From Cytophaga hutchinsonii ATCC 33406 (GTDB lineage Bacteria > Bacteroidota > Bacteroidia > Cytophagales > Cytophagaceae), in NCBI RefSeq assembly GCF_000014145.1, contig NC_008255.1, forward strand, positions 2,310,001 through 2,374,000: a stretch of 64,000 nucleotides of DNA, written 5' to 3'. This document shows positions 8,793-60,924 of the stretch, piece by piece (positions within the stretch are counted from its first letter, which is position 1; each line of letters opens with the position of its first letter). Under the pieces are notes generated by a model that did no database searches, was not told where the DNA came from, and was given only the letters and a program-made list of their open reading frames with translations. A program made the translations under genes and the position numbers.

Positions 8793-9917
8793 ATGAGTGA
8801 AAAAGATAAAACCGTTCAGCACTTTCTGGATCTGATCAAAAAATCCAGAAAAGGTAAATTTAAAATCTACATCGGCATGAGTGCCGGTGTAGGTAAATCA
8901 TACCGTATGCTGCAGGAAGCACATGCCTTACTGAAAAATGGTATTGATGTAAAGATCGGTTTTATCGAAACGCACAATCGCAAAGAAACACATGCGTTGT
9001 TGGAAGGTTTACCTGTTGTACCCAGACGCAAATTATTTTACAAGGGTAAAGAATTAGAAGAAATGGATGTGCAGGCCATTATTAATTTACGTCCTGAGGT
9101 TGTAATTGTAGATGAACTTGCGCATACCAATATTGAAGGAAGTAAAAATGAAAAACGCTGGCAGGATGTGATCGAAATTTTAGAAGCCGGTATCAACGTC
9201 ATTTCGGCCGTAAACATTCAGCACATTGAAAGCCTGAATGAAGAAGTAAAAACAATCACGGGTGTTGAAGTAAAAGAACGCATCCCCGATAGTATCTTAA
9301 CCCAAGCCGATGAAGTTGTAAATATTGATCTTACAGCCGACGAATTGATTATCCGTTTAAAAGAAGGGAAAATATATCAGGAAGAAAAAATACAGGCTGC
9401 CTTACAGAATTTCTTTAAAAGCGATCATATTTTGCAACTCCGTGAATTAGCACTCAAAGAAGTAGCTTCTCAAGTAGAACGGAAAGTTGAAACCGAAGTA
9501 ACGAAAACGCATGCCATTAAACACGAACGTTTTTTAGCGTGTATCAGCAGCAACGATCATGCAGCAAAAGAAGTGATTCGAAAAACAGCACGACTGGCAA
9601 ATTATTACCATAGCAAGTGGTATGTGTTATATATACAAACACCGAATGAACATGCAGATAAAATAGCACTAGATAAGCAACGCCATTTGATAAATAATTT
9701 TAAATTAGCAACCGAATTGGGTGCAGAAATTATTAAGGTAGAAAGTGCTTCTGTTACAAAAATGATCGTAAGTCAAGCCATTGAAAGGAACATCACTACT
9801 ATTTGTATTGGTAAGCCTCGTTTAAATGTGTTCAAAATTATCTGGAGAACCAACGTATTAAATACGCTTTTCAAAAAGTTATCTTCTAACAATATTGACC
9901 TTGTAATTCTATCTTAA
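8793..9917 (+). CDS. kdpD: KdpD N-terminal sensor half only (KdpD + Usp domains, no kinase)
   Basis: A 374-residue soluble protein matching only the cytoplasmic N-terminal half of KdpD. The KdpD ATP-binding domain (about 20-230) has Walker A GMSAGVGKS at 28-36 and Walker B VIVDELAHTN near residue 106. A universal-stress-protein-like domain fills 245-374. The four membrane helices, GAF region and histidine-kinase core of full KdpD are absent; the reading frame stops cleanly and the next ATG begins at the following base, where a separate kinase is encoded. In known KdpD proteins this half tunes the kinase/phosphatase balance. Here it presumably acts in trans on the kinase at 9918. Confidence 0.93.
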   Translation: MSEKDKTVQHFLDLIKKSRKGKFKIYIGMSAGVGKSYRMLQEAHALLKNGIDVKIGFIETHNRKETHALLEGLPVVPRRKLFYKGKELEEMDVQAIINLRPEVVIVDELAHTNIEGSKNEKRWQDVIEILEAGINVISAVNIQHIESLNEEVKTITGVEVKERIPDSILTQADEVVNIDLTADELIIRLKEGKIYQEEKIQAALQNFFKSDHILQLRELALKEVASQVERKVETEVTKTHAIKHERFLACISSNDHAAKEVIRKTARLANYYHSKWYVLYIQTPNEHADKIALDKQRHLINNFKLATELGAEIIKVESASVTKMIVSQAIERNITTICIGKPRLNVFKIIWRTNVLNTLFKKLSSNNIDLVILS

Positions 9918-11651
9918 ATGAAAATAAAAACAAAACTGACCTTAGGTGTTGGATTATTATTTCTCCTAATCATTTTATTAAGTGCTGTTGGAACCAGATA
10001 CATCAATGCATTAAAGTCAGATACGGAAAATATTTTAGTTGCAAACTACAACTCTTTGGAGTACGCACGCTTCATGTTAAGTTCGTTAGAAGAACAAAGT
10101 TCTCAAGCCATTTCTACATTCGAAAATAACTTAACAAAGCAGGAAGCAAATCTAACAGAAACAGGAGAAAAAAACATTACTACAGAAATACGAAATCAGT
10201 ATAACCGATATAAAATCAATAGATCAGACAGTACCTTATTGCCACAGATCCGACATGGCATTTATAAAATAATGGATCTGAATATGCAGGGAATTCAAAG
10301 GAAAAGTGAAATTGCAAAATCTACCGCCAACAAAGCGATCTTCTGGATTGCTGTTACGGGAACACTCTGCTTTGTGATTGCATTCACCTTATTGATCAAT
10401 TTACCTTCCAACATTGCAAATCCGATCAAAGAACTTACCGAAAGTATTCAACAGATCGCTGAAAAAAAATATTCCGAACGCGTACATTTTGAAGGTCATA
10501 ATGAATTTGGTGAACTTGCCAAATCTTTCAATACGATGGCTGAAAAATTAGAAGAATACAACAGCAGCAACCTTGCTAAGCTGATGATGGAGAAAAAACG
10601 TATTGAAAGCCTCATTAACAATATGTATGACCCCGTCATTGGCCTGGATGAAAATCTAAAAATACTTTTTGTTAATGAACAAGCGATCAAAATCATTGGC
10701 ATTTCTCAGGAGGAACTTATCGGACACTATACACAGGAACTGGCAATAAAAAACGATCTCGTACGCACTCTTGTACAAGATCTGATGGTGGCTGAAAACA
10801 CACCATCAAATAAAGCCATACCTATTAAAATTTATTCAAATAATAAAGAAGGCTATTTTGAAAAAGAGATTCTGCACATCTCCGTTACTCCTACCGGTGA
10901 GCAAGTAAAACAATTGATCGGTCATGTTATTATACTGCGGAACATTACAGAATATAAGGAATTGGATTTTGCCAAAACAAATTTCATTGCCACCGTTTCG
11001 CACGAATTCAAAACACCTATCTCTTCCATTAAAATGAGTTTGCAATTGCTGGAAAACAAACAGATCGGCATGCTCAATGAAGAACAGCAAAATCTATTGG
11101 AAAGTATTAAAGAAGATGCGAATCGTTTGCTTAAGATAACAGGTGAGCTTTTAAATATGACACAGGTTGAAAGCGGAAACATTCAATTATCTATTCTGCC
11201 GAATGATCCAAAGGAAATTTTATTTTATGCCATCAATGCCACAAAAACACAAGCCGAACAGAAAAACATCTCACTTAAAATTACTGCTCCGGACAACATA
11301 CCGCATGTACTGGCCGACAATGAAAAAACAGCGTGGGTGCTTATCAACCTATTATCCAATGCCATTCGCTATTCGTACGACAATTCTACCATTCAATTAG
11401 CAATTGCATCGCGTGATAATAAGGTAACGATATCTGTAAAAGATACCGGACAAGGCATTGCGTCTCAATACAAAGACAAAATATTCAACCGATACTTTCG
11501 TGTACCCGGAACAAAAAAAGAAGGTACCGGACTTGGCTTAGCCATCAGCAAAGAATTTATAGAAGCACAAGGCGGCTCCATCTCCGTTGATAGTGAATTC
11601 GGGAGCGGCAGTACGTTTACGATTGGGTTGTTAGTGGCCGGCGGACAGTAG
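9918..11651 (+). CDS. membrane histidine kinase (HAMP-PAS-HisKA-HATPase), partner of the split KdpD
   Basis: A 577-residue sensor kinase with a membrane helix at about 8-27, an extracytoplasmic helical region to about 140, a second helix at 142-165, HAMP (165-220), PAS (225-345), HisKA with phospho-acceptor H362 in VSHEFKTP, and the ATPase domain with N-box NLLSNAIRYS, G1 DTGQGIA and G2 GTGLGLAIS. It starts at the base after the kdpD stop codon, so the two are translationally coupled. It replaces the kinase half of KdpD with an unrelated membrane sensor. It is the last gene of the kdp unit and ends before a strong two-way hairpin. Confidence 0.93.
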   Translation: MKIKTKLTLGVGLLFLLIILLSAVGTRYINALKSDTENILVANYNSLEYARFMLSSLEEQSSQAISTFENNLTKQEANLTETGEKNITTEIRNQYNRYKINRSDSTLLPQIRHGIYKIMDLNMQGIQRKSEIAKSTANKAIFWIAVTGTLCFVIAFTLLINLPSNIANPIKELTESIQQIAEKKYSERVHFEGHNEFGELAKSFNTMAEKLEEYNSSNLAKLMMEKKRIESLINNMYDPVIGLDENLKILFVNEQAIKIIGISQEELIGHYTQELAIKNDLVRTLVQDLMVAENTPSNKAIPIKIYSNNKEGYFEKEILHISVTPTGEQVKQLIGHVIILRNITEYKELDFAKTNFIATVSHEFKTPISSIKMSLQLLENKQIGMLNEEQQNLLESIKEDANRLLKITGELLNMTQVESGNIQLSILPNDPKEILFYAINATKTQAEQKNISLKITAPDNIPHVLADNEKTAWVLINLLSNAIRYSYDNSTIQLAIASRDNKVTISVKDTGQGIASQYKDKIFNRYFRVPGTKKEGTGLGLAISKEFIEAQGGSISVDSEFGSGSTFTIGLLVAGGQ

Positions 11652-15062: not shown

Positions 15063-15827
15063 TTATATTGCCTGTCCGCCTGAAACCTCTATGCGTTGTG
15101 CATTCACCCAGCCTGCATCCTGGGTACATAAGAACGCTACAACCTTTCCTATATCGTCCGGCAAACCAACACGTCCCAAAGCAGTAATGCCTGCAATGTT
15201 TGCATTGATTTCCTTGTTGTCGCGTACACGTCCGCCGCCAAAATCTGTTTCAATCGCACCGGGTGCAATCACATTTACTCTGATTTTCCGATCACCTAAT
15301 TCCTTTGCAAGATAACGGGAGTAGGTTTCAATCGCACTCTTCATAGATGCATACACAGATGACCCCGGCATGGTTATTCTCGACAAGCCGGATGAAATAT
15401 TTACAATTCCACCGCCATCATGCATGATTGGCAATGCCTTTTGCGTTAAAAAAAATACACCTTTATAATGAATATTAAAGATGTCGATTACCTGCTCTTC
15501 AGATGTTTCTGCTGCTAACGAATACAACGCGGTGCCTGCATTGTTGATCAGAAAATCGAAATTGGATCTGCTGTAATTTTCTTTTAAATAGTCCTTAACC
15601 TGCATAATAAAAGAATCAAACGTTGCCGTATTACTGGTGTCCAGCTGAAACGCAACCGCCTTCTGCCCCATCAATTCAATGGCTGTTACCACTTCATTGG
15701 CGGCTGCCTGGTTTGAATGGTAGGTAAGAATAATATCTATACCTTTCTGAGCCAATGCCAATGCCATATTTTTTCCTAATCCACGGCTCCCGCCGGTAAT
15801 CAGTGCTATTTTATTATTTGTATCCAT
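15063..15827 (-). CDS. short-chain dehydrogenase/reductase (classical SDR)
   Basis: A 254-residue NAD(P)-dependent oxidoreductase. The cofactor motif is TGGSRGLGKN (12-21), followed by NNAG near residue 95, the catalytic serine in NISSG, the YxxxK pair in SVYASMKSA near residue 158, and the PG motif after NVIAPGAIETD. Length and motif order are those of classical SDRs such as 3-oxoacyl-reductase and glucose dehydrogenase; the substrate cannot be read. It is followed by the AraC gene and preceded by the NmrA-like gene, suggesting a small inducible redox operon. Confidence 0.9.
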   Translation of the reverse strand: MDTNNKIALITGGSRGLGKNMALALAQKGIDIILTYHSNQAAANEVVTAIELMGQKAVAFQLDTSNTATFDSFIMQVKDYLKENYSRSNFDFLINNAGTALYSLAAETSEEQVIDIFNIHYKGVFFLTQKALPIMHDGGGIVNISSGLSRITMPGSSVYASMKSAIETYSRYLAKELGDRKIRVNVIAPGAIETDFGGGRVRDNKEINANIAGITALGRVGLPDDIGKVVAFLCTQDAGWVNAQRIEVSGGQAI

Positions 15828-15848
15828 CTTATGTATCTGTTAAAATGA

Positions 15849-16733
15849 TTATGCGTTATAGGCTGCCGCAAATTCTTTTGCAAATTCTTCCAGCTTTATC
15901 TTACCAAAAGCTGGCTTATTTTTATAGAAATCACGTGCAAGGTTACCCTTATGCATGCTGTCATACATTTCAACAAAACCTTCTGCAAGAATGGTTGGCA
16001 CACCGAAACCTTTTAAGTTCTGCAGCACTTCTTCATTACTGATCATTTCCCATTTCAGGTCGGGTTTGCCAATGGCCTCGCCTAATACGTTCGCTATTTC
16101 ATGTCCATTGCGCTCATCACTCGATACATAGCGGACAGTACCTTTACTTGTATCATTGAATATCTCATCGGCAATGGCTGCCGCAATATCAATGGGCGCA
16201 ACCATCGGAAACGTTTTATCACCGCCATAATTCGCTTTTATCACGCCTTGATGTTTGATCATGCTGATGAAGTTATTCAGGTTGTAATAAAAATACGTTG
16301 GACGTACATGTGTAACCTGCACATCTGCTAATTGATTGAAGATGTTTTCAGCATCGTACGCACCCAATAAAATACCTGTTCCGCTATCCAGATCCGCACC
16401 AAATGTACTCAGGTGGATGGCGCGTTTTACCTGTGCCTGTTTTATGGCAGAAACATAATTTTTGGCAATGCTGCTATAGAAGAGTCTTCTATCCGGCTCT
16501 TTAAAAGCCGCAGGCGGCACCATGCAATATACCACATCGGCACCTGTAAAAGTCTCAGCGAGAAATGCGGCATCTTCCATCGCACCAATAGCAGCCGTTG
16601 CTCCCATCTGTTCAATTCCACTGCGTTTTTCAGGATTACTGCTGATTACCGTAACGATATGTCCTTTTTGTAGCAATTCCTCTGTGAGCGGTTTTCCGAT
16701 ATGTCCTAACGAACCTGTAACGACTATTTTCAT
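15849..16733 (-). CDS. NmrA-like NAD(P)-binding protein (atypical SDR)
   Basis: A 294-residue NmrA/HSCARG-type protein. The Rossmann motif TGSLGHIGKPLTEELLQKG occupies residues 6-24, and the remainder fits redox-sensing atypical SDRs or quinone/azo reductases of this group. I start at the ATG at 16733 (MKIVVTG) since an in-frame ATG nine codons earlier would add a polar tail before the dinucleotide-binding strand, which normally begins at residue 2-3. It is the first gene of the unit that continues into the SDR and AraC genes. Confidence 0.85.
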   Translation of the reverse strand: MKIVVTGSLGHIGKPLTEELLQKGHIVTVISSNPEKRSGIEQMGATAAIGAMEDAAFLAETFTGADVVYCMVPPAAFKEPDRRLFYSSIAKNYVSAIKQAQVKRAIHLSTFGADLDSGTGILLGAYDAENIFNQLADVQVTHVRPTYFYYNLNNFISMIKHQGVIKANYGGDKTFPMVAPIDIAAAIADEIFNDTSKGTVRYVSSDERNGHEIANVLGEAIGKPDLKWEMISNEEVLQNLKGFGVPTILAEGFVEMYDSMHKGNLARDFYKNKPAFGKIKLEEFAKEFAAAYNA

Positions 16734-16888
16734 ACTGTTTGTTGTTTTTTGATGATACAAAATTCAAGCAATCTGAACGAAAGATTGTAGCCGAATCTAT
16801 GTTTGTTGTAGCCAAAAATGGTGTTAGAAAAAAGTATAAACAGGGTGAACTGTTCGTTTTATCAGATTGATTGTATTATGAGCTGTTC

Positions 16889-17049
16889 GCGATTGAAATC
16901 GCAAACCCGGATATTTGAGTTCGCCGGGGCGAATATATTCTCTTGATGCTGGAACGGATTAAAATCCTTATTTATCTGGCTTCGGAACTTAATTCCGAAG
17001 CGCTTATATGATTTCTCATCGATGTGTTAAATTCATTTCACATCGATGA
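16889..17049. repeat. cluster of four short palindromes in a 331-base gene-free stretch
   Basis: Between 16734 and 17064 there is no gene. The stretch holds GCGATTGAAATCGC (16889-16902), TTCGCCGGGGCGAA (16920-16933), CTTCGGAA/TTCCGAAG (16980-17000) and an 11-bp inverted repeat TCATCGATGTG/CACATCGATGA with a 12-base spacer (17016-17049). The last could terminate the E1 gene, though no T-run follows. The first two resemble palindromes elsewhere in the window (31644, 25160, 54651) and look like REP-type intergenic elements. Confidence 0.6.
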
Positions 17050-17064
17050 ATCATAATTCCATAA

Positions 17065-19473
17065 TCACTTATACCACTTCGGAAACTTCGCCGGATTTAC
17101 TTCGTGCATCATTTCATATACTACATCAATGACATCATCTGAGCTTGGCTTAGAATAATAATCTCCATCGGTAGAGTATGCTGGCCTGTTATCCTGTGCG
17201 GCAAGCGTGCGTGGCTCTGAGTCCAGATACTGCCATGCCTTCTGCCCTTCCAGTACCTGCTGCATCATATAAGCCGTTGCACCTGCGGAATAGTCTTCAT
17301 CGGCAAACAACACACGGTTTGTTTTCTTAATCGATTCAACAATCTGCTGTGTTCTGTCAAACGGCAGCAGCGTTTGTATGTCAATGATCTCACACGAGAT
17401 CCCTAACTGCTGTAATTCGTTTGCGCCTTCCTGTACAATACGGCACATAGAACCGTATGTAACAATGGTAATATCCGTACCCGGTCTCAATACATCTACA
17501 ATACCCAACTGCACGGTAAATTCTCCCAGGTTCTCCGGAAGCTTTTCTTTCAAGCGATACGCATTTAATGATTCAATCATGATCGCCGGTTCGTCGCCTT
17601 TGATCAGTGTGTTGTACATACCTGCTGCCTGCGTCATGTTCCGCGGTACACATAAGAACATGCCACGGATAGAACCTAAGATCATCTGCATCGGTGAACC
17701 CGAGTGGAACATGCCTTCCAGCCGGTGGCCACGTGTACGGATAATCAGCGGTGCTTTCTGTCCGCCGGCTGAACGGTAATGCAGCGATGCCACATCATCC
17801 GATAATATTTCAATAGCGAATAATAAATAGTCTAGATACTGGATCTCGGCAATCGGACGCAGGCCACGCATAGCGGTGCCGATGGCTTGTCCAACGATGG
17901 TTGCTTCACGGATACCGGTATCGGTAATACGGATCTCTCCGAATTTATCCTGTAACCCGGAGAAGCCCTGGTTTACATCACCGATCTGCCCTACGTCTTC
18001 CCCGAAGGCAAGCAGACGTGCATCACGCTTGAACAGTGCTTCGAAGTTGTGCTGCAATAATTCTCTTCCATCGATTAAGGGTGCATCGGCTGAGATAACC
18101 GGCGCCACTTCAGGCACCAGTAAGGCAGATTCAACAGACTGGCTGTATAAATGACTATTGAAACGTTGTCTGTTTTCTGTTTCAGTACGTGCCGCCCAAT
18201 CCTGCAAGTGTTCTTTGGCAGCAGTTGTTTCATTGCGCAGCAAACGCAACGCTTTCTTCACCGCTCTTACCGCATCCGAGCGGTATGGGTTCAAGGTTTT
18301 GTGTAAATCAACAGAAAGCTGTTCAAGTTCATCTTTAACAGAACTTGAAGCTGCTGCTTCTTTGATATATTGTACAGCCAGTTCGTGATCGTCCTTCAGG
18401 TATTTTACAAAATTATCCCAGGCACGCTGACGCGCAAGTTTTACTTTTTCTACCGATTCTGCTTCGATCTTCAACAGATCATCTTCTGTACACACACCAT
18501 TCTCCAGAATCCATTCTCTGAACTTCTTGTTGCAATCGTATTCTTCTTCCCAGTCCAGGCGTTCTTTGGTTTTATAACGCTCGTGTGAACCCGATGTAGA
18601 ATGTCCCATGGGCTGTGTCATTTCACATACGTGCATAAGCACCGGTACATGTTCTTCTCTGCACAAACGGGTAGCTTCTTTATATGCATAGCAAAGCGCT
18701 TCATAATCCCAGCCCTTCACTTTCATGATCTCAATACCACGTTCGTTGTGGTCTCTTCTGAAACCTTCAAACATAGAAGAGATGTCTTCTTTGGTTGTCT
18801 GATAACGCTGCGGTACAGAGATCGCATAGGCATCATCCCAGATTGAGATCAGCATGGGTATCTGCAATACACCTGCGGCATTGATCGCTTCAAAAAATAC
18901 CCCTTCTGCCATGGCGCCGTTTCCGATCGTACCAAATGCAACTTCATTCCCATTATGGCTGAAGTTGGTCATTGACTGCAATTCAGGATTGTTGCGAAAC
19001 AGCTTGGAAGCCCAGGCTAAACCTACCAGACGGGGCATTTGCGCTCCTGTTGGAGAAATATCGGGTGTCGATACTTTTATTTTTGTGAGGTCTTTAAAAC
19101 GACCCTGTTCATCTAAATTTCGTGTTGAATAATGACCGATCATCATACGTCCGCCGGAATGCGGATCGTGATTGACATCTGCATGACCGTATAACTGAGC
19201 AAAATACTGTTCAATACTCAGCTCACCCGTAGCCATGACAAACGTCTGATCCCGGTAATAACCTGAACGGAAATCGCCTTCTTTGAAGAACTTTGCCATG
19301 CAGATCTGCGCCAGTTCTTTCCCTGTTCCAAAAATACCAAACTTGGCTTTACCCATAAAAACCTCCTTACGGGCAAGAATGCTCGTTTGTCTGCTTTCAC
19401 AGGCCAGTCTGTAATCTTGCAGAATCTCTTCCTTGGTCAAAGAAAACTCTCCGGTCATTTCACTTGTATTCAA
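17065..19473 (-). CDS. 2-oxoacid dehydrogenase E1, alpha and beta fused
   Basis: An 802-residue fused E1 component, the thiamine-diphosphate decarboxylase of a branched-chain or pyruvate dehydrogenase complex. Residues 1-430 are E1-alpha, 455-802 E1-beta (LAFGEDVGQIGDVNQGF, then the C-terminal transketolase-like domain with TYGSM and FADEDYSAG). In the alpha half the ThDP/Mg2+ motif, normally GDG-x26-NN, reads GNG at 184-186 and DD at 213-214 with exactly 26 residues between, so the Mg2+-ligating acid and amide positions seem exchanged. The linker (430-450) is charged. It stands alone with a well-formed Bacteroidota promoter at 19505-19535; no E2 or E3 gene is nearby. Which 2-oxoacid it uses is open. 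Confidence 0.9.
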   Translation of the reverse strand: MNTSEMTGEFSLTKEEILQDYRLACESRQTSILARKEVFMGKAKFGIFGTGKELAQICMAKFFKEGDFRSGYYRDQTFVMATGELSIEQYFAQLYGHADVNHDPHSGGRMMIGHYSTRNLDEQGRFKDLTKIKVSTPDISPTGAQMPRLVGLAWASKLFRNNPELQSMTNFSHNGNEVAFGTIGNGAMAEGVFFEAINAAGVLQIPMLISIWDDAYAISVPQRYQTTKEDISSMFEGFRRDHNERGIEIMKVKGWDYEALCYAYKEATRLCREEHVPVLMHVCEMTQPMGHSTSGSHERYKTKERLDWEEEYDCNKKFREWILENGVCTEDDLLKIEAESVEKVKLARQRAWDNFVKYLKDDHELAVQYIKEAAASSSVKDELEQLSVDLHKTLNPYRSDAVRAVKKALRLLRNETTAAKEHLQDWAARTETENRQRFNSHLYSQSVESALLVPEVAPVISADAPLIDGRELLQHNFEALFKRDARLLAFGEDVGQIGDVNQGFSGLQDKFGEIRITDTGIREATIVGQAIGTAMRGLRPIAEIQYLDYLLFAIEILSDDVASLHYRSAGGQKAPLIIRTRGHRLEGMFHSGSPMQMILGSIRGMFLCVPRNMTQAAGMYNTLIKGDEPAIMIESLNAYRLKEKLPENLGEFTVQLGIVDVLRPGTDITIVTYGSMCRIVQEGANELQQLGISCEIIDIQTLLPFDRTQQIVESIKKTNRVLFADEDYSAGATAYMMQQVLEGQKAWQYLDSEPRTLAAQDNRPAYSTDGDYYSKPSSDDVIDVVYEMMHEVNPAKFPKWYK

Positions 19474-47498: not shown

Positions 47499-48155
47499 AT
47501 GCTAACCCACACCGAAGAAAACTACATCAAAACAATTTACCATTTGTCCGGTGAGGATAACCGGGATGTATCTACGAACGGAATTGCTGAAGTATTAAAG
47601 ACCAAACCTGCTTCCGTTACGGATATGCTTCGTAAACTTTCGGAAAAATCTTTTATCAATTACATCAAATACCAGGGGGTAACACTTACTAAAAAAGGCA
47701 AAAAAGAAGCCTTGCAGATTATCCGTAAGCACCGTTTGTGGGAAGTATTTTTGGTAGATAAGCTAAAGTTTCATTGGGATGAAGTACACGATATAGCTGA
47801 GCAGCTGGAACACATTCAATCGAGCGTATTAATAAGCCGGCTGGATGAATTTCTGGGCAATCCGGCTTTTGACCCGCATGGTGACCCTATTCCCGATCAG
47901 CAGGGAGAGATTACCGTGCGGAGGAAGTACCTCTTATGCGACATGTCTGTCGGGTTTAAAGGAATTGTTGTGGGCATGCTTGAAACTTCCCCGGCATTTC
48001 TTCAATACTTAGATCGCTTAAATATTTGTCCGGGTGCAAAAATTACCATTAAAGACCGCATTGTGTTTGATGGTTCACTTGAAATTGTACTCCAGGAAAG
48101 CAAACATCTGGTTATTTCTTATGAAGTAGCCAAAAACCTATACGTTACCGATTAA
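47499..48155 (+). CDS. DtxR/MntR-family metal-dependent repressor
   Basis: A 218-residue repressor: winged helix-turn-helix (1-65, TNGIAEVLKTKPASVTDMLRKL), dimerisation/metal domain (66-140, HRLWEVFLVDKL, WDEVHDIAEQLEHI, DPHGDPIP) and a C-terminal SH3/FeoA-like domain (150-218). Metal-ligating H and E residues of the family are present. It opens the metal-uptake operon of 48193-52551 and is followed after 37 bases by the binding-protein gene. Whether it senses Mn, Fe or Zn cannot be told. Confidence 0.93.
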   Translation: MLTHTEENYIKTIYHLSGEDNRDVSTNGIAEVLKTKPASVTDMLRKLSEKSFINYIKYQGVTLTKKGKKEALQIIRKHRLWEVFLVDKLKFHWDEVHDIAEQLEHIQSSVLISRLDEFLGNPAFDPHGDPIPDQQGEITVRRKYLLCDMSVGFKGIVVGMLETSPAFLQYLDRLNICPGAKITIKDRIVFDGSLEIVLQESKHLVISYEVAKNLYVTD

Positions 48156-50199: not shown

Positions 50200-51486
50200 A
50201 TGAAAGAATTAATCCGCTTCCTCCTGCTTGAAGACCCCAACGTACGCACCGTTGTGTTCGGCACTATCCTGCTCAACCTGTCGGCTTCGGTAGTGGGGAC
50301 CTTTGCTTTTTTACAGAAGAAAAGTCTTTCCGGTGATGCGGTAGCACATTCTATCTTACCGGGAATCTGCATCGCATTTATTGCCTTTCAAACAAAATCC
50401 CTGTGGGTATTGCTGCCCGGCGCTTTTGTAACCGGCTGGCTTTCCTTGTATCTGGTAGACCTGATTTCCCATCATTCAAAATTAAAACAGGACACCGCTA
50501 TTGCCGTTGTGCTTTCTGTATTCTTTGCTGTGGGCATCATCTTATTAACCTACATACAACATTCCGGAAGCGGCGCGCAAAGCGGACTGGATAGTTTTCT
50601 GTTTGGAAAAGCAGCAGCGCTGTTAGAAAAAGACCTGCTTTCATATGCCATTATCAGTATGCTTGTTATAAGCATTACTGCATTTTTCTTTAAAGAATTT
50701 ATGCTGATCAGTTTCGATGCTGTTTATGCAGGCAGTATTGGTGTACCTGTACGCACATTACAGCTGGTTTTAACAACCTTAACCGTTATTTCCATTGTAA
50801 CCGGAATACAATCCGTTGGTGTTGTATTAATGTCGGCCATGCTCATCACCCCTGCTGTAGCAGCACGTTACTGGACGGATAATTTAAAACGCCTCCTGCT
50901 GCTTGCCGTGTTGTTTAATACGTTTGCCGCTATCATAGGCTCGTATATCTCCTACCGCTACCCATCTATGCCAACGGGCCCGTGGATCGTGCTGGTGATA
51001 TCCATGTTTGCGTTTGCATCTATTCTGTTTGCTCCGAAGAAAGGCATCGTGTACAGCATGTATCGTGTATTCAAACACAAATCGTTAATCTTAAAGGAAA
51101 ACATTCTGAAAGCCTTATATCAGTTAGGCGAACAGGAGAATCGGTTTCAGGATACACATGCATTAAGTAATCTGCTGGCAAAACGGAATCTTCCGCTGTG
51201 GCAGGTATACCCTGCTTTATACCGTTTGCGCTTTGAAGGTTATCTGCAGCATACAGGCGAAGGCTGGGCACTTACAAATGAAGGCATCGAACGTGGAAAA
51301 CGTATCGTGCGTCTGCATCGCTTGTGGGAAATGTATCTATCAAAGAATTTGTTACTTCCATCCGATCACGTACACGATGATGCTGAAACCATTGAACACA
51401 TTCTTACACCCGAACTGGAATCGCGGCTGGAGAAAAGTTTAAACTTCCCGGAAGTAGATCCGCATGAAAAGAAAATACCACGGTAA
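50200..51486 (+). CDS. metal ABC permease fused to a DtxR-like domain
   Basis: A 428-residue fusion. Residues 1-285 are a TroC/ZnuB-type permease with eight or nine helices (FLQKKSLSGDAVAHSILPGI near residue 36). Residues about 295-428 form a winged-helix plus DtxR dimerisation-type domain: ALSNLLAKRNLPLWQVYPAL, GIERGKRIVRLHRLWEMYLS and VHDDAETIEHILTPELE, ending at DPHEKKIPR. The HRLWE and VHD-AE-EHI signature is the same as in the repressor at 47499. It ends where the next repeat begins. I infer feedback on transport or metal sensing at the membrane. Confidence 0.9.
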   Translation: MKELIRFLLLEDPNVRTVVFGTILLNLSASVVGTFAFLQKKSLSGDAVAHSILPGICIAFIAFQTKSLWVLLPGAFVTGWLSLYLVDLISHHSKLKQDTAIAVVLSVFFAVGIILLTYIQHSGSGAQSGLDSFLFGKAAALLEKDLLSYAIISMLVISITAFFFKEFMLISFDAVYAGSIGVPVRTLQLVLTTLTVISIVTGIQSVGVVLMSAMLITPAVAARYWTDNLKRLLLLAVLFNTFAAIIGSYISYRYPSMPTGPWIVLVISMFAFASILFAPKKGIVYSMYRVFKHKSLILKENILKALYQLGEQENRFQDTHALSNLLAKRNLPLWQVYPALYRLRFEGYLQHTGEGWALTNEGIERGKRIVRLHRLWEMYLSKNLLLPSDHVHDDAETIEHILTPELESRLEKSLNFPEVDPHEKKIPR

Positions 51487-55918: not shown

Positions 55919-56806
55919 ATGTCCCAGTATTCCATTTCAGATCTGGAAAAATTAAGCGGAATCAAAGCCCATACCATCCGGATTTGGGAACAGCGCTATA
56001 ACCTGCTCACTCCCGTACGATCAGACGGTAACATACGCAGCTACGACGACGATCAGGTGCGCAGGCTGCTGAATGTTTCTACACTCATTAAACTGGGCAT
56101 TAAAATATCCCGCATCAGTCAGCTGACAGATGGGGAAATCAATGAACTGCTCGAACAGTCTATTCAGCAGGCGGCCGATGAAGATGCAAAAGTATCGGTA
56201 TACATCCATACCTTGATTGCTGCCGGGATCGACTATAATGAATATGAATTTGATAAAGCATTCAAGCAGGCTGTAAAAAAATACGGGCTGGTTATCTGCT
56301 ATCAGAAAGTCATTTATCCGATGCTTGTTAAGATCGGACTTCTATGGGGCAAGAGCGAAATGCTGCCGGCACAGGAACACTTTATTTCAAACCTGCTGAA
56401 GCAAAAACTGCATCATGCCATTGAACAGCTTCCTGTACCACCCGCAACGGCTGAAACCTGGCTGCTCTTTTTACCCGAAGAGGAAGATCACGAATTGGGT
56501 TTGCTGCTGTCTGCCTTTTTAATACGCGCGTCAAACAAACGCGTTGTATACCTGGGCCAGCGTGTACCTTATTATAACCTGCAGGCTGTGATTGATGGTG
56601 TTGAACCGGAATGCCTCCAGTATTTCATCGTTCGCTACCACACAGCTGAATGGTTGCAGACCTTGATGAACAACATGCAAAAGGATTTCCCGGGAATTAA
56701 AAAATACATCTGTGGCGCCGCATATTTATTTGAGGATGTAAAACTTCCCAAAGATCATGTATGGATCTCCGGCATTGATGCATTCATACAATTACTGAAC
56801 AAATAA
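55919..56806 (+). CDS. CarH-like MerR regulator with B12-binding domain (light-sensing candidate)
   Basis: A 295-residue MerR-type regulator. N-terminal winged helix 1-70 (SISDLEKLSGIKAHTIRIWEQRYN), a four-helix bundle (90-170) holding the CarH photoreceptor motif W143-x9-E153-H154, and a B12-binding Rossmann domain (about 175-295) with E-D-H191-E-L-G, the E/D-x-H-x-x-G base-off cobalamin motif. All three signatures of CarH/LitR/CarA regulators are intact. In CarH, light breaks the adenosyl bond and lifts repression of carotenoid genes. The carotenoid genes follow directly, so I infer the same logic here; light response is not shown. Confidence 0.88.
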   Translation: MSQYSISDLEKLSGIKAHTIRIWEQRYNLLTPVRSDGNIRSYDDDQVRRLLNVSTLIKLGIKISRISQLTDGEINELLEQSIQQAADEDAKVSVYIHTLIAAGIDYNEYEFDKAFKQAVKKYGLVICYQKVIYPMLVKIGLLWGKSEMLPAQEHFISNLLKQKLHHAIEQLPVPPATAETWLLFLPEEEDHELGLLLSAFLIRASNKRVVYLGQRVPYYNLQAVIDGVEPECLQYFIVRYHTAEWLQTLMNNMQKDFPGIKKYICGAAYLFEDVKLPKDHVWISGIDAFIQLLNK

Positions 56807-56823: not shown

Positions 56824-58302
56824 TTGAAAACAATTGGAATTATAGGATCCGGAATCAGTGGATTAAGTGCTGCTGCAGTACTGGCACTGAACGGACAAAA
56901 AGTTGTAGTGTTTGAAAAAAACGATCAGCTTGGCGGGCGCATGCGGCAGTTTGAAGCCAATGGTTTCACCTTTGACATGGGCCCGAGCTGGTACTGGATG
57001 CCGGATGTGTTCGAACGCTTTTATAAACAGTTCGGCTATTCCGGCAGCGACTTTTATGAATTAAAAAAACTCGATCCGGGTTTTCAGATGATCACCGCTG
57101 ATGGAGAAACAGTAAAGATTCCGGCCGGATGGGACGAACTGCTGGCACTTTTCGAACAGATAGAAACCGGCGCCGCAGACAAGCTGAAAGCATTTATGCG
57201 GGAAGCGGAATATAAATACGAGGTAGGTGTAAAAAAACTGATCTATCAACCCGGACTGTCTGTACTGGAACTCATCAATGCAGATACAATAAGCGGCGTG
57301 TTCCGGCTGCAGATTTTTTCTTCTTTCAGCAAACATGTGCGCAGGTATTTTAAAAATGACACACTTATTGCTTTAATGGAATTCCCGGTGTTGTTTTTAG
57401 GTGCCATGCCCAAAAACACACCTGCTCTGTATAGTCTCATGAACTATGCAGGTTTGAAGCAGGGCACCTTTTATCCGATGGGAGGTTTCAAAAAAGTAAT
57501 TGATGCTATGGTACAGATTTCGCGAGAGCACGGCGTAGAATTTAATACCGCTGAAGGAGTTGATGCAATAAAAAAAGAAAGCAATTCGAAAATTTCATTA
57601 ACCACACATGCCCGCAGCATACAGCTGGATGGATTGATCGCATCGGCAGATTACCAGCATGTAGAAAGCAAGTTGCTGCAGCAAAAAGATCGTAACTACA
57701 CAGAGTAATACTGGGATAAAAAAACATTCGCGCCTTCTTCCCTCATCTTTTATATGGGAGTGAATACCAAACTCGACAAACTCGAACACCACAATCTTTT
57801 CTTCGATGGGGATTTTCCGAAGCATGCAAGAGAAATTTATGAAGACCCGCAATGGCCCGAAAATCCGCTGTTCTATGTGTGCTGTCCTTCCCGCACAGAT
57901 CCTTCTGTAGCACCAGCCGGCAAAGAAAACATCTTTGTATTGATGCCGATAGCCCCTGGCATTGCGGATGAAGAAGCCATCCGTGAAACCTATTACAACC
58001 TTTTGATGAAACGACTCGAAGCATATACCGGCGTTCCGGTTCGGGAAAACATTGAGTACGTAAAAAGTTATTGTGTGAAGGATTTTGTAGCAGATTATAA
58101 TTCGTATAAAGGGAATGCATACGGACTTGCAAATACCTTGATGCAAACGGCTAATCTTAAGCCAAAGATTAAAAATAACAGCATACCAAACTTTTACTAC
58201 TGCGGACAATTAACCGTTCCCGGTCCGGGCGTGCCCCCGTCAATTGTATCCGGACAAGTAGCGGCCAATGAATTATTAAAAACCTTATCTGTTAATGTAT
58301 GA
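56824..58302 (+). pseudogene. crtI: phytoene desaturase interrupted by one in-frame stop
   Basis: The frame encodes a complete CrtI (about 492 codons) except for a TAA at 57706-57708. The first 294 codons (TTG start at 56824) begin with the FAD motif GIIGSGISGLSAAAVLALNG and DMGPSWYWMP; downstream the same frame continues YWDKKTFAPSSLIFYMGVN and ends with the FAD/carotenoid block GPGVPPSIVSGQVAANELL. There is no frameshift. The stop replaces one codon between RNYTE and YWDKK; a single-base change (AAA or CAA to TAA) explains it. Without readthrough, the pathway would stall at phytoene. crtB overlaps its end by four bases (ATGA). Confidence 0.88.
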
Positions 58303-59135
58303 AGCAATTGTTTGATAACGTTTCTGCCATGTGCAGCAAATTAACGACAAAAAAATACAGCACCAGCTTTTCATTAGGGATACATTTCCTGCATAAAAAA
58401 CTGCATGACCCCGTTTATGCCATTTATGGATTCGTACGGTTTGCCGATGAAATTGTTGATTCATTTCACGGATACGATAAGAAACGTTTAATGGCACAGT
58501 TCCGCCGCGACACGGCTTTTGCACTGCAAGATAAAATCAGCCTCAACCCTATTCTGAATTCTTTCCAACATGTCGTGCATACCTATAACATAGAATGGGA
58601 ACTGATTGATACATTTTTAAAAAGTATGGAAATGGATCTGGATCAGTCCGCACACAACGAGCAGTCGTATAAAGAATACATCATTGGCTCTGCGGAAGTA
58701 GTCGGACTTATGTGCCTGCGTGTGTTTGTTAAAGGCGATGTTGATATGTATGAAAAACAGAAGCCGCATGCCATGAGTTTAGGTGCAGCTTTCCAGAAAG
58801 TAAATTTTCTGCGGGATGCCAAAGAAGATTTTGATTCGTTGGGAAGAACCTATTTTCCGGATGTAAGCATGGAAAAGTTTGACCGGCACATCAAACAAAA
58901 TATTGAATCGGATATTGAAAAAGATTTTCAGCACGCACTGATCGGAATCAAGCAACTACCGGCAGAGTCAAGGCTGGGTGTATACCTGGCTTACATTTAT
59001 TATAAAAATCTGTTTCATAAAATAAAATCCATTCCGCCCGAACGTATGTTAAAAGAACGTATCCGCATACCCAATCTGAATAAATTCGCGTTGTTGTTTC
59101 AATGTTATTTCAGGAATCAATTCAATATATTATAA
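58299..59135 (+). CDS. crtB: phytoene synthase
   Basis: A 278-residue squalene/phytoene synthase joining two GGPP molecules. The two aspartate-rich motifs are ADEIVDS (near residue 50) and NFLRDAKEDFDSLGRTYFP (near residue 167), and RTYFP completes the trans-prenyltransferase signature. The start ATG overlaps the crtI end by four bases, showing coupling to the broken gene. No GGPP synthase gene occurs in the window. Confidence 0.94.
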   Translation: MKQLFDNVSAMCSKLTTKKYSTSFSLGIHFLHKKLHDPVYAIYGFVRFADEIVDSFHGYDKKRLMAQFRRDTAFALQDKISLNPILNSFQHVVHTYNIEWELIDTFLKSMEMDLDQSAHNEQSYKEYIIGSAEVVGLMCLRVFVKGDVDMYEKQKPHAMSLGAAFQKVNFLRDAKEDFDSLGRTYFPDVSMEKFDRHIKQNIESDIEKDFQHALIGIKQLPAESRLGVYLAYIYYKNLFHKIKSIPPERMLKERIRIPNLNKFALLFQCYFRNQFNIL

Positions 59136-59139
59136 TAGT

Positions 59140-59640
59140 ATGATACGATTGATAAATTATATACTATTTCTGCTATTACCTGTATGTTCGCAGGCTGAAG
59201 AATGGAATATGGTTACGATCCGTGATTTATATCACAAGGCATCCGTATCAAAAGAAGATGCCGACAAATTGAAAGCAGCGCTGAAATCGATACAATCTCC
59301 CAATGAATGCATTAAAGGCTATATTGCGGCCGCGTACATGATTGAAGCAAAGCACGTATATAACCCATCTACCAAGCTAAGCCACTTCAATAATGGAAAA
59401 ACACTGCTTGATGCTGCTATCAAAAATGATCCGCACAATATTGAGCTTAAGTTCATAAGAGTCTGTATTCAAACAAATGCGCCTTCTTTTCTGGGCTACA
59501 ACAGGCAAATTGAAACAGATAAAGCATTTATTGTATCAACATATGCCGCACAAACAGATCTTGATTTAAAAAAACGGATTAAAGAATTTATGCTTCAATC
59601 CGGTATATGTACGGAACAGGAAAAAAAAACGTTTAAGTAA
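59140..59640 (+). CDS. exported protein of the carotenoid cluster, unknown
   Basis: A 166-residue protein with a signal peptide (LFLLLPVCSQAEEW). The rest is helical and contains AYMIEAKHVYNPSTKL and FNNGKTLLDAAIKNDPHNIELKFIRV, resembling a single TPR-like pair. It lies between crtB (four bases) and crtZ (89 bases), so it belongs to the cluster, but its role in carotenoid metabolism is not evident. I do not recognise a named family. Confidence 0.75.
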   Translation: MIRLINYILFLLLPVCSQAEEWNMVTIRDLYHKASVSKEDADKLKAALKSIQSPNECIKGYIAAAYMIEAKHVYNPSTKLSHFNNGKTLLDAAIKNDPHNIELKFIRVCIQTNAPSFLGYNRQIETDKAFIVSTYAAQTDLDLKKRIKEFMLQSGICTEQEKKTFK

Positions 59641-59729: not shown

Positions 59730-60197
59730 ATGGATAATTGGATCGCTATTGCCGCAGTCATCCTCGTAACATTTCTCAGTATGGAATTTGTTGCCTGGTT
59801 CGCTCATAAATATATTATGCATGGATTTCTCTGGAAGCTGCACAAAGACCATCACCAGCCGGATCCTGAAACACCGGTTGAACACAATGACTTCTTCTTT
59901 GTCATTTTTGCCACCCCTGCAATTATTTTATTTATCATTGGCATAAAAGACTTTACAGTATCATTCTGGATCGCCGTGGGTATTACCACGTACGGTCTGT
60001 CCTATTTCTTTATCCACGATCTGTTTATACATCAGCGCATCAAAGTATTGCGGAATGCCGATTCTGTTTATTTCAGAGCAATCCGGAAAGCACACAAAAT
60101 ACACCACAAACATCTGGAAAAAGAAGACGGCGAATGCTTTGGTATGTTGTTGGTTCCTTTCAAATATTTTAAAGAAGCAAGAAAAAATGTACGCTAA
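59730..60197 (+). CDS. crtZ: beta-carotene hydroxylase (fatty-acid hydroxylase family)
   Basis: A 155-residue di-iron membrane hydroxylase. All four histidine clusters of CrtZ are visible: HKYIMHG (residue 27), HKDHH (40), HDLFIHQR (93) and HKIHHKH (117). Three or four helices embed it in the membrane. It should convert beta-carotene to zeaxanthin. It overlaps the lycopene cyclase gene by 11 bases, so translation is coupled. Confidence 0.93.
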   Translation: MDNWIAIAAVILVTFLSMEFVAWFAHKYIMHGFLWKLHKDHHQPDPETPVEHNDFFFVIFATPAIILFIIGIKDFTVSFWIAVGITTYGLSYFFIHDLFIHQRIKVLRNADSVYFRAIRKAHKIHHKHLEKEDGECFGMLLVPFKYFKEARKNVR

Positions 60198-60924
60198 TTA
60201 CACCTATCTGGCAATCGACCTGGGATCGCTGGTTGTGCCGCTTATCTTTAGCTTTCACCCAAAATTACTGTTTTATAAAAAATGGGTTGCCTTTGGGTTC
60301 GCTAATTTTATAGTAAGTGTATTATTCATTGCCTGGGATATGTATTATACACATCTTGGTGTATGGGGGTTTAATCCGCAGTACCTTACAGGTATCCACG
60401 TAGGCAATCTTCCGGCAGAAGAAATTTTATTTTTCATGTGTATTCCATTTTCAAGCGTCTTTACCTATCACTGCCTGAAATTATTTTACCCCGATAGAAC
60501 GGTCATTCCATATAAAGAAATTACGCTTTTTATGGTCATGTTACTTTTATGTATAGGGATACAGCACCCGACACATATATATACAAGCGTTACGTTTATT
60601 CTACTGGCTCTGACACTGCTGTTGCTTACATTTGTATTTGAATTGCCCTGGATACCAAATTTTTATTTCACCTATCTGATTATATTAATTCCCTTTTTTA
60701 TTGTTAATGGACTGCTTACCGGCACCTGGCTTGAGGATCCGGTAGTCTGGTATGATAACACAAAAAACCTCGGCATACGTTTGGGAACTATACCGGTGGA
60801 GGATATTTTCTATGGCATGCTGATGCTTATTTTAAACACCGCGCTGTTTGAATATTTTGACCGTAAAATTACTGCAAAAACGGTTAGCGAATTAATTCCT
60901 GAAAATAATCAGCTAACCGTTTAA
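60187..60924 (+). CDS. lycopene cyclase, two-domain CrtYcd type
   Basis: A 245-residue membrane cyclase built of two lycopene-cyclase domains in tandem. Each carries the acidic signature: NLPAEEILFFMCIPF near residue 76 and IPVEDIFYGMLMLI near residue 200. Seven helices are predicted. It makes beta-carotene from lycopene. The ATG at 60187 is chosen because an upstream in-frame start would overlap most of crtZ. The end of the gene contains AAACGGTTAGC and GCTAACCGTTT (60878-60922), an 11-bp inverted repeat that may form a terminating hairpin. Confidence 0.9.
   Translation: MYANYTYLAIDLGSLVVPLIFSFHPKLLFYKKWVAFGFANFIVSVLFIAWDMYYTHLGVWGFNPQYLTGIHVGNLPAEEILFFMCIPFSSVFTYHCLKLFYPDRTVIPYKEITLFMVMLLLCIGIQHPTHIYTSVTFILLALTLLLLTFVFELPWIPNFYFTYLIILIPFFIVNGLLTGTWLEDPVVWYDNTKNLGIRLGTIPVEDIFYGMLMLILNTALFEYFDRKITAKTVSELIPENNQLTV

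Follow-up and report, generated by a model that had tools for sequence, protein, structure and literature searches.

The stretch of DNA analysed here, referred to as the window, comprises 64,000 bases (positions 2310001–2374000) of the single-contig, 4,433,218-base genome of Cytophaga hutchinsonii ATCC 33406, a cellulose-degrading soil bacterium, and harbors a carotenoid (crt) operon. Its features, with reference to the nearest relative, G001, are the following.

55919–56806, plus strand: MerR-type regulator with a B12-binding domain, CarH-like, directly 5' of crtI.
56824–57705, plus strand: crtI, part 5' of the stop; 294 codons, with a TTG start common to G001.
57706–57708, plus strand: in-frame TAA, codon 295; a residue stands here in 88 of 88 aligned homologues (the best 80 of at least 597 relatives plus eight family loci).
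57709–58302, plus strand: crtI, part 3' of the stop; 197 codons plus TGA, 85.8% identical to G001, dN/dS 0.048.
58299–59135, plus strand: crtB, phytoene synthase (Pfam SQS_PSY, 145 bits).
59140–59640, plus strand: open reading frame (ORF), function unassigned, with matches in several relatives' operons.
59730–60197, plus strand: crtZ-like hydroxylase, 91% identical in G001 and 51% identical to positions 11538–11996 of L077, a locus of G001.
60136–60924, plus strand: lycopene cyclase of the CarR domain type (PF18916, 153.6 bits); start uncertain.

The crtI frame runs from the TTG at 56824 to a TGA at 58300–58302, and the TAA lies in frame at codon 295 of this 492-codon CrtI-type phytoene desaturase gene, between the flanking residues DRNYTE and YWDKK. 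The sequence therefore confirms the earlier note, which had described a single TAA between RNYTE and YWDKK as breaking the gene. All 492 codons can be aligned gap-free with the genes of G001, G015 and G016, and the read-through protein covers positions 2–478 of the 478 positions of NF058655, the profile for CrtID, a bifunctional phytoene desaturase/3,4-desaturase; because of this alignment and the near-whole profile match, chance is ruled out as the source of the frame. The read-through product scores 697 bits against the CrtID cut-off of 640 and 401 bits against the TIGR02734 (crtI_fam) cut-off of 238. By homology, fold and operon context, including synteny with G001, G015 and G016, the gene is a CrtI/CrtID by descent, while as encoded its two fragments score 380 and 264 bits, both below the curated CrtID cut-off, which is exceeded only if the stop is read through. 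With TIGR02734 the downstream fragment reaches 126 bits and the upstream fragment 247, so that the latter alone just passes the cut-off of 238, a point against regarding the gene as a pseudogene. The start codon is no further lesion, a possibility we rejected because G001 also opens crtI with TTG. The claim that the lesion stands alone in an otherwise whole CrtI holds as well, with no gap or second stop relative to G001.

The neighbours of crtI (the regulator, crtB, the ORF at 59140–59640, the crtZ-like gene and the lycopene cyclase gene) are all open, and tblastn matches each of them over its full or nearly full length in G001, in identical order, which bears out the statement that the other crt genes are intact. 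The ATG of crtB overlaps the TGA of crtI. G015 and G016 share the operon order except for the ORF at 59140–59640, for which tblastn found no match in either genome; it is 63% identical in G001, matches more weakly in G002, G011, G012 and G018, and has no match in Pfam or NCBIfam. This ORF evolves faster than its operon neighbours (dN/dS 0.247). The crtZ-like gene itself has no Pfam match at E 0.001; its L077 counterpart matches PF04116. TIGR03462 matches the genome twice, both times inside the lycopene cyclase gene, at 60199–60468 and 60577–60849.

The regulator, which occupies the same position in G001, G015, G016 and G018, scores 62 bits with MerR_1 and 43.6 bits with B12-binding_2, and among PDB structures it matches 3whp and the CarH structure 5c8d best. 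It also has the residues of the Wx9EH and E-x-H-x-x-G motifs. By domains and motif residues it thus resembles CarH, though its 87 bits lie below the CarH equivalog cut-off of 400, and the term "CarH-like" in the earlier note is a fair one. A literature search on CarH in Bacteroidetes found none.

Other regions yielded observations of separate interest. At window positions 50200–51486 one protein joins an ABC-3 metal permease (PF00950) to the C-terminal domain of an iron-dependent repressor (PF02742), and a separate gene at 47499–48155 appears DtxR/MntR-like by eye. At 8793–11651 a KdpD sensor-domain protein (374 aa) adjoins a separate HAMP/PAS/histidine kinase gene, as if KdpD had been split; the genes before this pair look kdp-like by eye. 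Outside the window, L186 (G000:C1 2895001–2915000) contains repeated 77-codon frames in 234-base steps at about 15390–17730; the minus strand of this region is open over 1099 codons, and a large repeat protein is therefore likely there.

The truncating stop is absent from the orthologues, as in a nonsense pseudogene. The nearest orthologue, that of G001 (within the genus, three genomes), is open and 86% identical. Among the 19 genomes of the family, crtI is open at 70 and 69% identity in G015 and G016 and at 48–52% identity in G002, G010, G011, G012 and G018; G008 has an incomplete match where a contig ends, and nine other genomes lack a full-length crtI match above 30% identity. One of these nine is G017, whose genome is reported to be 99% complete; since its congeners G015, G016 and G018 have crtI, absence of the gene within a genus has precedent. 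For a wider view we aligned 88 homologues, no two identical, made up of eight family loci and the best 80 of at least 597 relatives from a scan of genome contigs. Over the stretch aligned, 87 of these are free of stops, and the sole exception, L090, has one at codon 490 of 492, which we take to be the natural gene end. Of the 155 columns with at least 90% conservation in the same 88 sequences, C. hutchinsonii keeps the majority residue at 152, and the three departures are all common to G001. At the TAA column all 88 have a sense codon, for ten kinds of residue, and this column ranks 30 of 492 in variability. A read-through residue would thus be tolerated there, which speaks against a pseudogene only mildly, because equal or greater variability is seen at 7 of the 101 other codons that a single step separates from TAA.

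Constraint on crtI resembles that on crtB and the regulator. Relative to G001, NG86 dN/dS is 0.051 for crtI (0.053 before the stop, 0.048 after), 0.039 for the regulator, 0.059 for crtB and 0.035 for crtZ, with a rough 0.108 for crtY, for which the relatives' stretches overran the gene ends; all absolute values are rough because dS, at 1.4–2.2 (0.9 for the ORF at 59140–59640), is near saturation. Counted at the sites on which G015 and G016 agree, private amino-acid changes in crtI number 16 for C. hutchinsonii and 12 for G001, against 32 and 32 in the control genes (regulator, crtB, crtZ and crtY; Fisher p 0.65). We also considered relaxation confined to the part after the stop and rejected it: private changes (C. 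hutchinsonii versus G001) number 5 versus 8 before the stop and 11 versus 4 after it (Fisher p 0.12), and when columns are graded by conservation in the alignment of the 88 (best 80 of at least 597 relatives plus eight family loci) the excess after the stop vanishes, with 4 versus 4 changes at the 50% grade and 2 versus 2 at the 70% grade.

The crtI excess is 4 private changes, with an upper limit of 12.7 (normal approximation), whereas a neutrally evolving gene would be expected to gather 635–1058 along the branch. By this crude estimate the lesion would fall in the last 0.4–0.6% of the branch, or at most about the last 1.2–2%. Since crtI shows no other decay, the lesion is either very recent, dating roughly from the last 2% of the time since the split from G001, or a sequencing error; the gene is newly dead, not dead, or misread. 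The recent origin proposed by the earlier note is thereby supported with numbers. Neither relaxed constraint nor further lesions mark crtI as a pseudogene, which is what would be expected if the lesion is very recent, and purifying selection appears to have acted on the gene until recently.

An error of base calling or assembly, with an intact crtI in the living strain, would look just like this, namely a pristine gene with exactly one lesion, and the stop rests on one assembly of the species, so that a single-base error is possible. Finished genomes, however, contain few substitution errors, of which few make stops, and recent nonsense pseudogenes are commoner. We therefore regard an error as unlikely, though it deserves to be kept in mind. 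A composition-based scan for other genes broken by one stop, applied to the window and to 20 stretches of 20 kb each (464 kb in all, roughly one tenth of the genome), returned 7 and 25 pairs at two settings, which we judge to be mostly ordinary neighbours or repeats, and it missed crtI itself at both. Excerpts from the literature on this species with carotenoid, flexirubin, pigment or phytoene, and on white flexirubin mutants and fabZ, make no mention of a crtI stop. Among the matches listed, the literature on resequenced strains did not name the species and that on premature stops in crtI concerned mostly plants; four candidate locus tags had no match in a literature search with the species name.

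Some full-length CrtI could still be made if the stop were read through or suppressed, and the equal constraint on either side of it (dN/dS 0.048 after, 0.053 before), together with the ten kinds of residue tolerated at its column among the 88 homologues (best 80 of at least 597 plus eight), would fit such an arrangement. Yet none of these 88 (best 80 of at least 597 relatives plus eight family loci) has a stop there, and the 80 nucleotides after it fold no better than shuffled sequences (z −0.21; 81 of 200 fold at least as well), so that neither a stop conserved in this set nor a downstream structure points to programmed readthrough. TAA is also the stop of 155 of the 224 ORFs that reach 250 codons or more in the 464 kb (ORFs taken mechanically), and a general TAA suppressor would for this reason presumably be costly. 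No UUA anticodon occurs among the 37 tRNA genes found, a list that is incomplete, since the expected Ile-GAU and Ala-UGC genes are missing from it and 150 of 263 first-look candidates were scored. Readthrough or suppression is hence very improbable. The variant in which conditional readthrough at a permissive site holds carotenoid low or switchable in a yellow flexirubin-maker, the gene still being under selection, is one to which we attach hardly any weight. Of the three causes offered in the earlier note, then, recent loss and sequencing error both stand, while readthrough or suppression is disfavoured.

Translation might alternatively restart at the ATG at 57754, 45 bases after the stop, and residues 1–294 and the second polypeptide could form a split enzyme. 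Such a restart would nevertheless drop codons 296–310, including Y296, W297, A303 and P304, which are invariant in the eight sequences aligned, and no split form occurs among the 88 homologues (best 80 of at least 597 relatives plus eight family loci); a split enzyme is scarcely credible.

In our view crtI has probably been inactivated by a nonsense mutation that is real and very recent, the odds against a sequence error resting on general knowledge. The read-through protein gives a confident AlphaFold2 model (mean pLDDT 86.8, pTM 0.88; low at 430–444 and 464–468), which has its best PDB match in the gamma-carotenoid desaturase 4rep (TM 0.89), followed by Pantoea CrtI, 4dgk (TM 0.63), and places codon 295 in a short helix (294–298). 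In this model the 294-residue product lacks strands 305–313, 323–327, 350–353 and 368–376, helix 384–402 and the last helix, 471–487. The upstream fragment retains the N-terminal FAD-binding Rossmann segment and lacks the last helix and the conserved C-terminal stretch NFYYCGQLTVPGPGVPPSIVSG, both of which presumably help to complete the FAD-binding domain in the CrtI family. On the model, a fragment ending at residue 294 is predicted to be inactive.

If the nonsense mutation is real, translation of crtI would halt after 294 residues and phytoene desaturation should fail, because the fragment loses the later part of CrtI. The intact cyclase and hydroxylase would then be left without substrate, and phytoene build-up or a lower flux through crtB would be expected, with an idle operon under its regulator. 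The stop lies 591 bases upstream of crtB and may lower CrtB through lost coupling or transcription polarity, given the overlap of the crtB ATG with the crtI TGA. The earlier expectation that the strain would make only phytoene is accordingly plausible but perhaps overstated, as the outcome could be little of anything.

A replacement desaturase was sought in the same genome. With the protein P0001 as query, no second CrtI-class gene was found, the next match having an E value of 1.4e-6. PF01593 occurs at six places in the genome, one of which is crtI, and none of the other five proteins meets a phytoene desaturase cut-off. NCBIfam assigns two of them as protoporphyrinogen oxidase and glutamate synthase small subunit; a third is PRK07208-like, below cut-off, and L005 is CrtO-like at 125 of 1000 bits, also below cut-off. 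The fifth, L006, is CrtD-like at 243 of 549.7 bits and reaches 82.5 of 238.1 bits with crtI_fam. The presence of this CrtD/CrtISO-like paralogue counts against the loss of the pathway, and it might have a role in phytoene desaturation. L006 (1471–2937; G000:C1 about 3960228–3961694) encodes an orphan flavoprotein; of the 18 other family genomes, G010 alone has a close match (63% identical), and that copy contains an internal TAG. G001 has a second carotenoid cluster between guaA and surE (L077, G001:C13, 9417–12685), with crtD (NF042421, 627 bits versus 500), Caroten_synth (PF04240), crtZ-like and lycopene cyclase genes. The 967-base surE–guaA interval of C. hutchinsonii has no crt gene among the ORFs listed, which are one of 160 aa and, nested within this, a shorter reverse frame. 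The genome has two polyprenyl synthase genes, so the precursor of phytoene may be available.

According to one study (PMC12016534), a yellow colour appears as the wild type grows on filter paper. Flexirubin can explain this colour, and yellow cells are therefore no proof of carotenoid synthesis. Should the stop be real, carotenoids would have disappeared recently from a model cellulose degrader that still keeps the whole operon and a putative B12 light switch, which would provide a clean natural knock-out for the role of carotenoids beside flexirubin and a test case for operon decay once the product is gone. The locus would also warn that gene content alone should not make this genome count as carotenoid-positive.

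Three known systems invite comparison. With CarH, the B12-dependent light-responsive repressor (PDB 5c8d), the regulator shares the MerR and B12-binding domains and key motif residues, and it sits directly before crt genes; unlike an equivalog it falls short in score (87 of 400 bits), and its role as a light switch here is putative. With members of NF058655 CrtID and TIGR02734 crtI_fam, crtI shares its read-through score and an operon with crtB and lycopene cyclase, but its encoded product ends at residue 294. Nonsense pseudogenes, as a kind, are a common event and show one truncating stop in a gene that is open in relatives, as crtI does in a clean form; in contrast to them crtI shows no further decay, so that it is either an error or a very fresh example.
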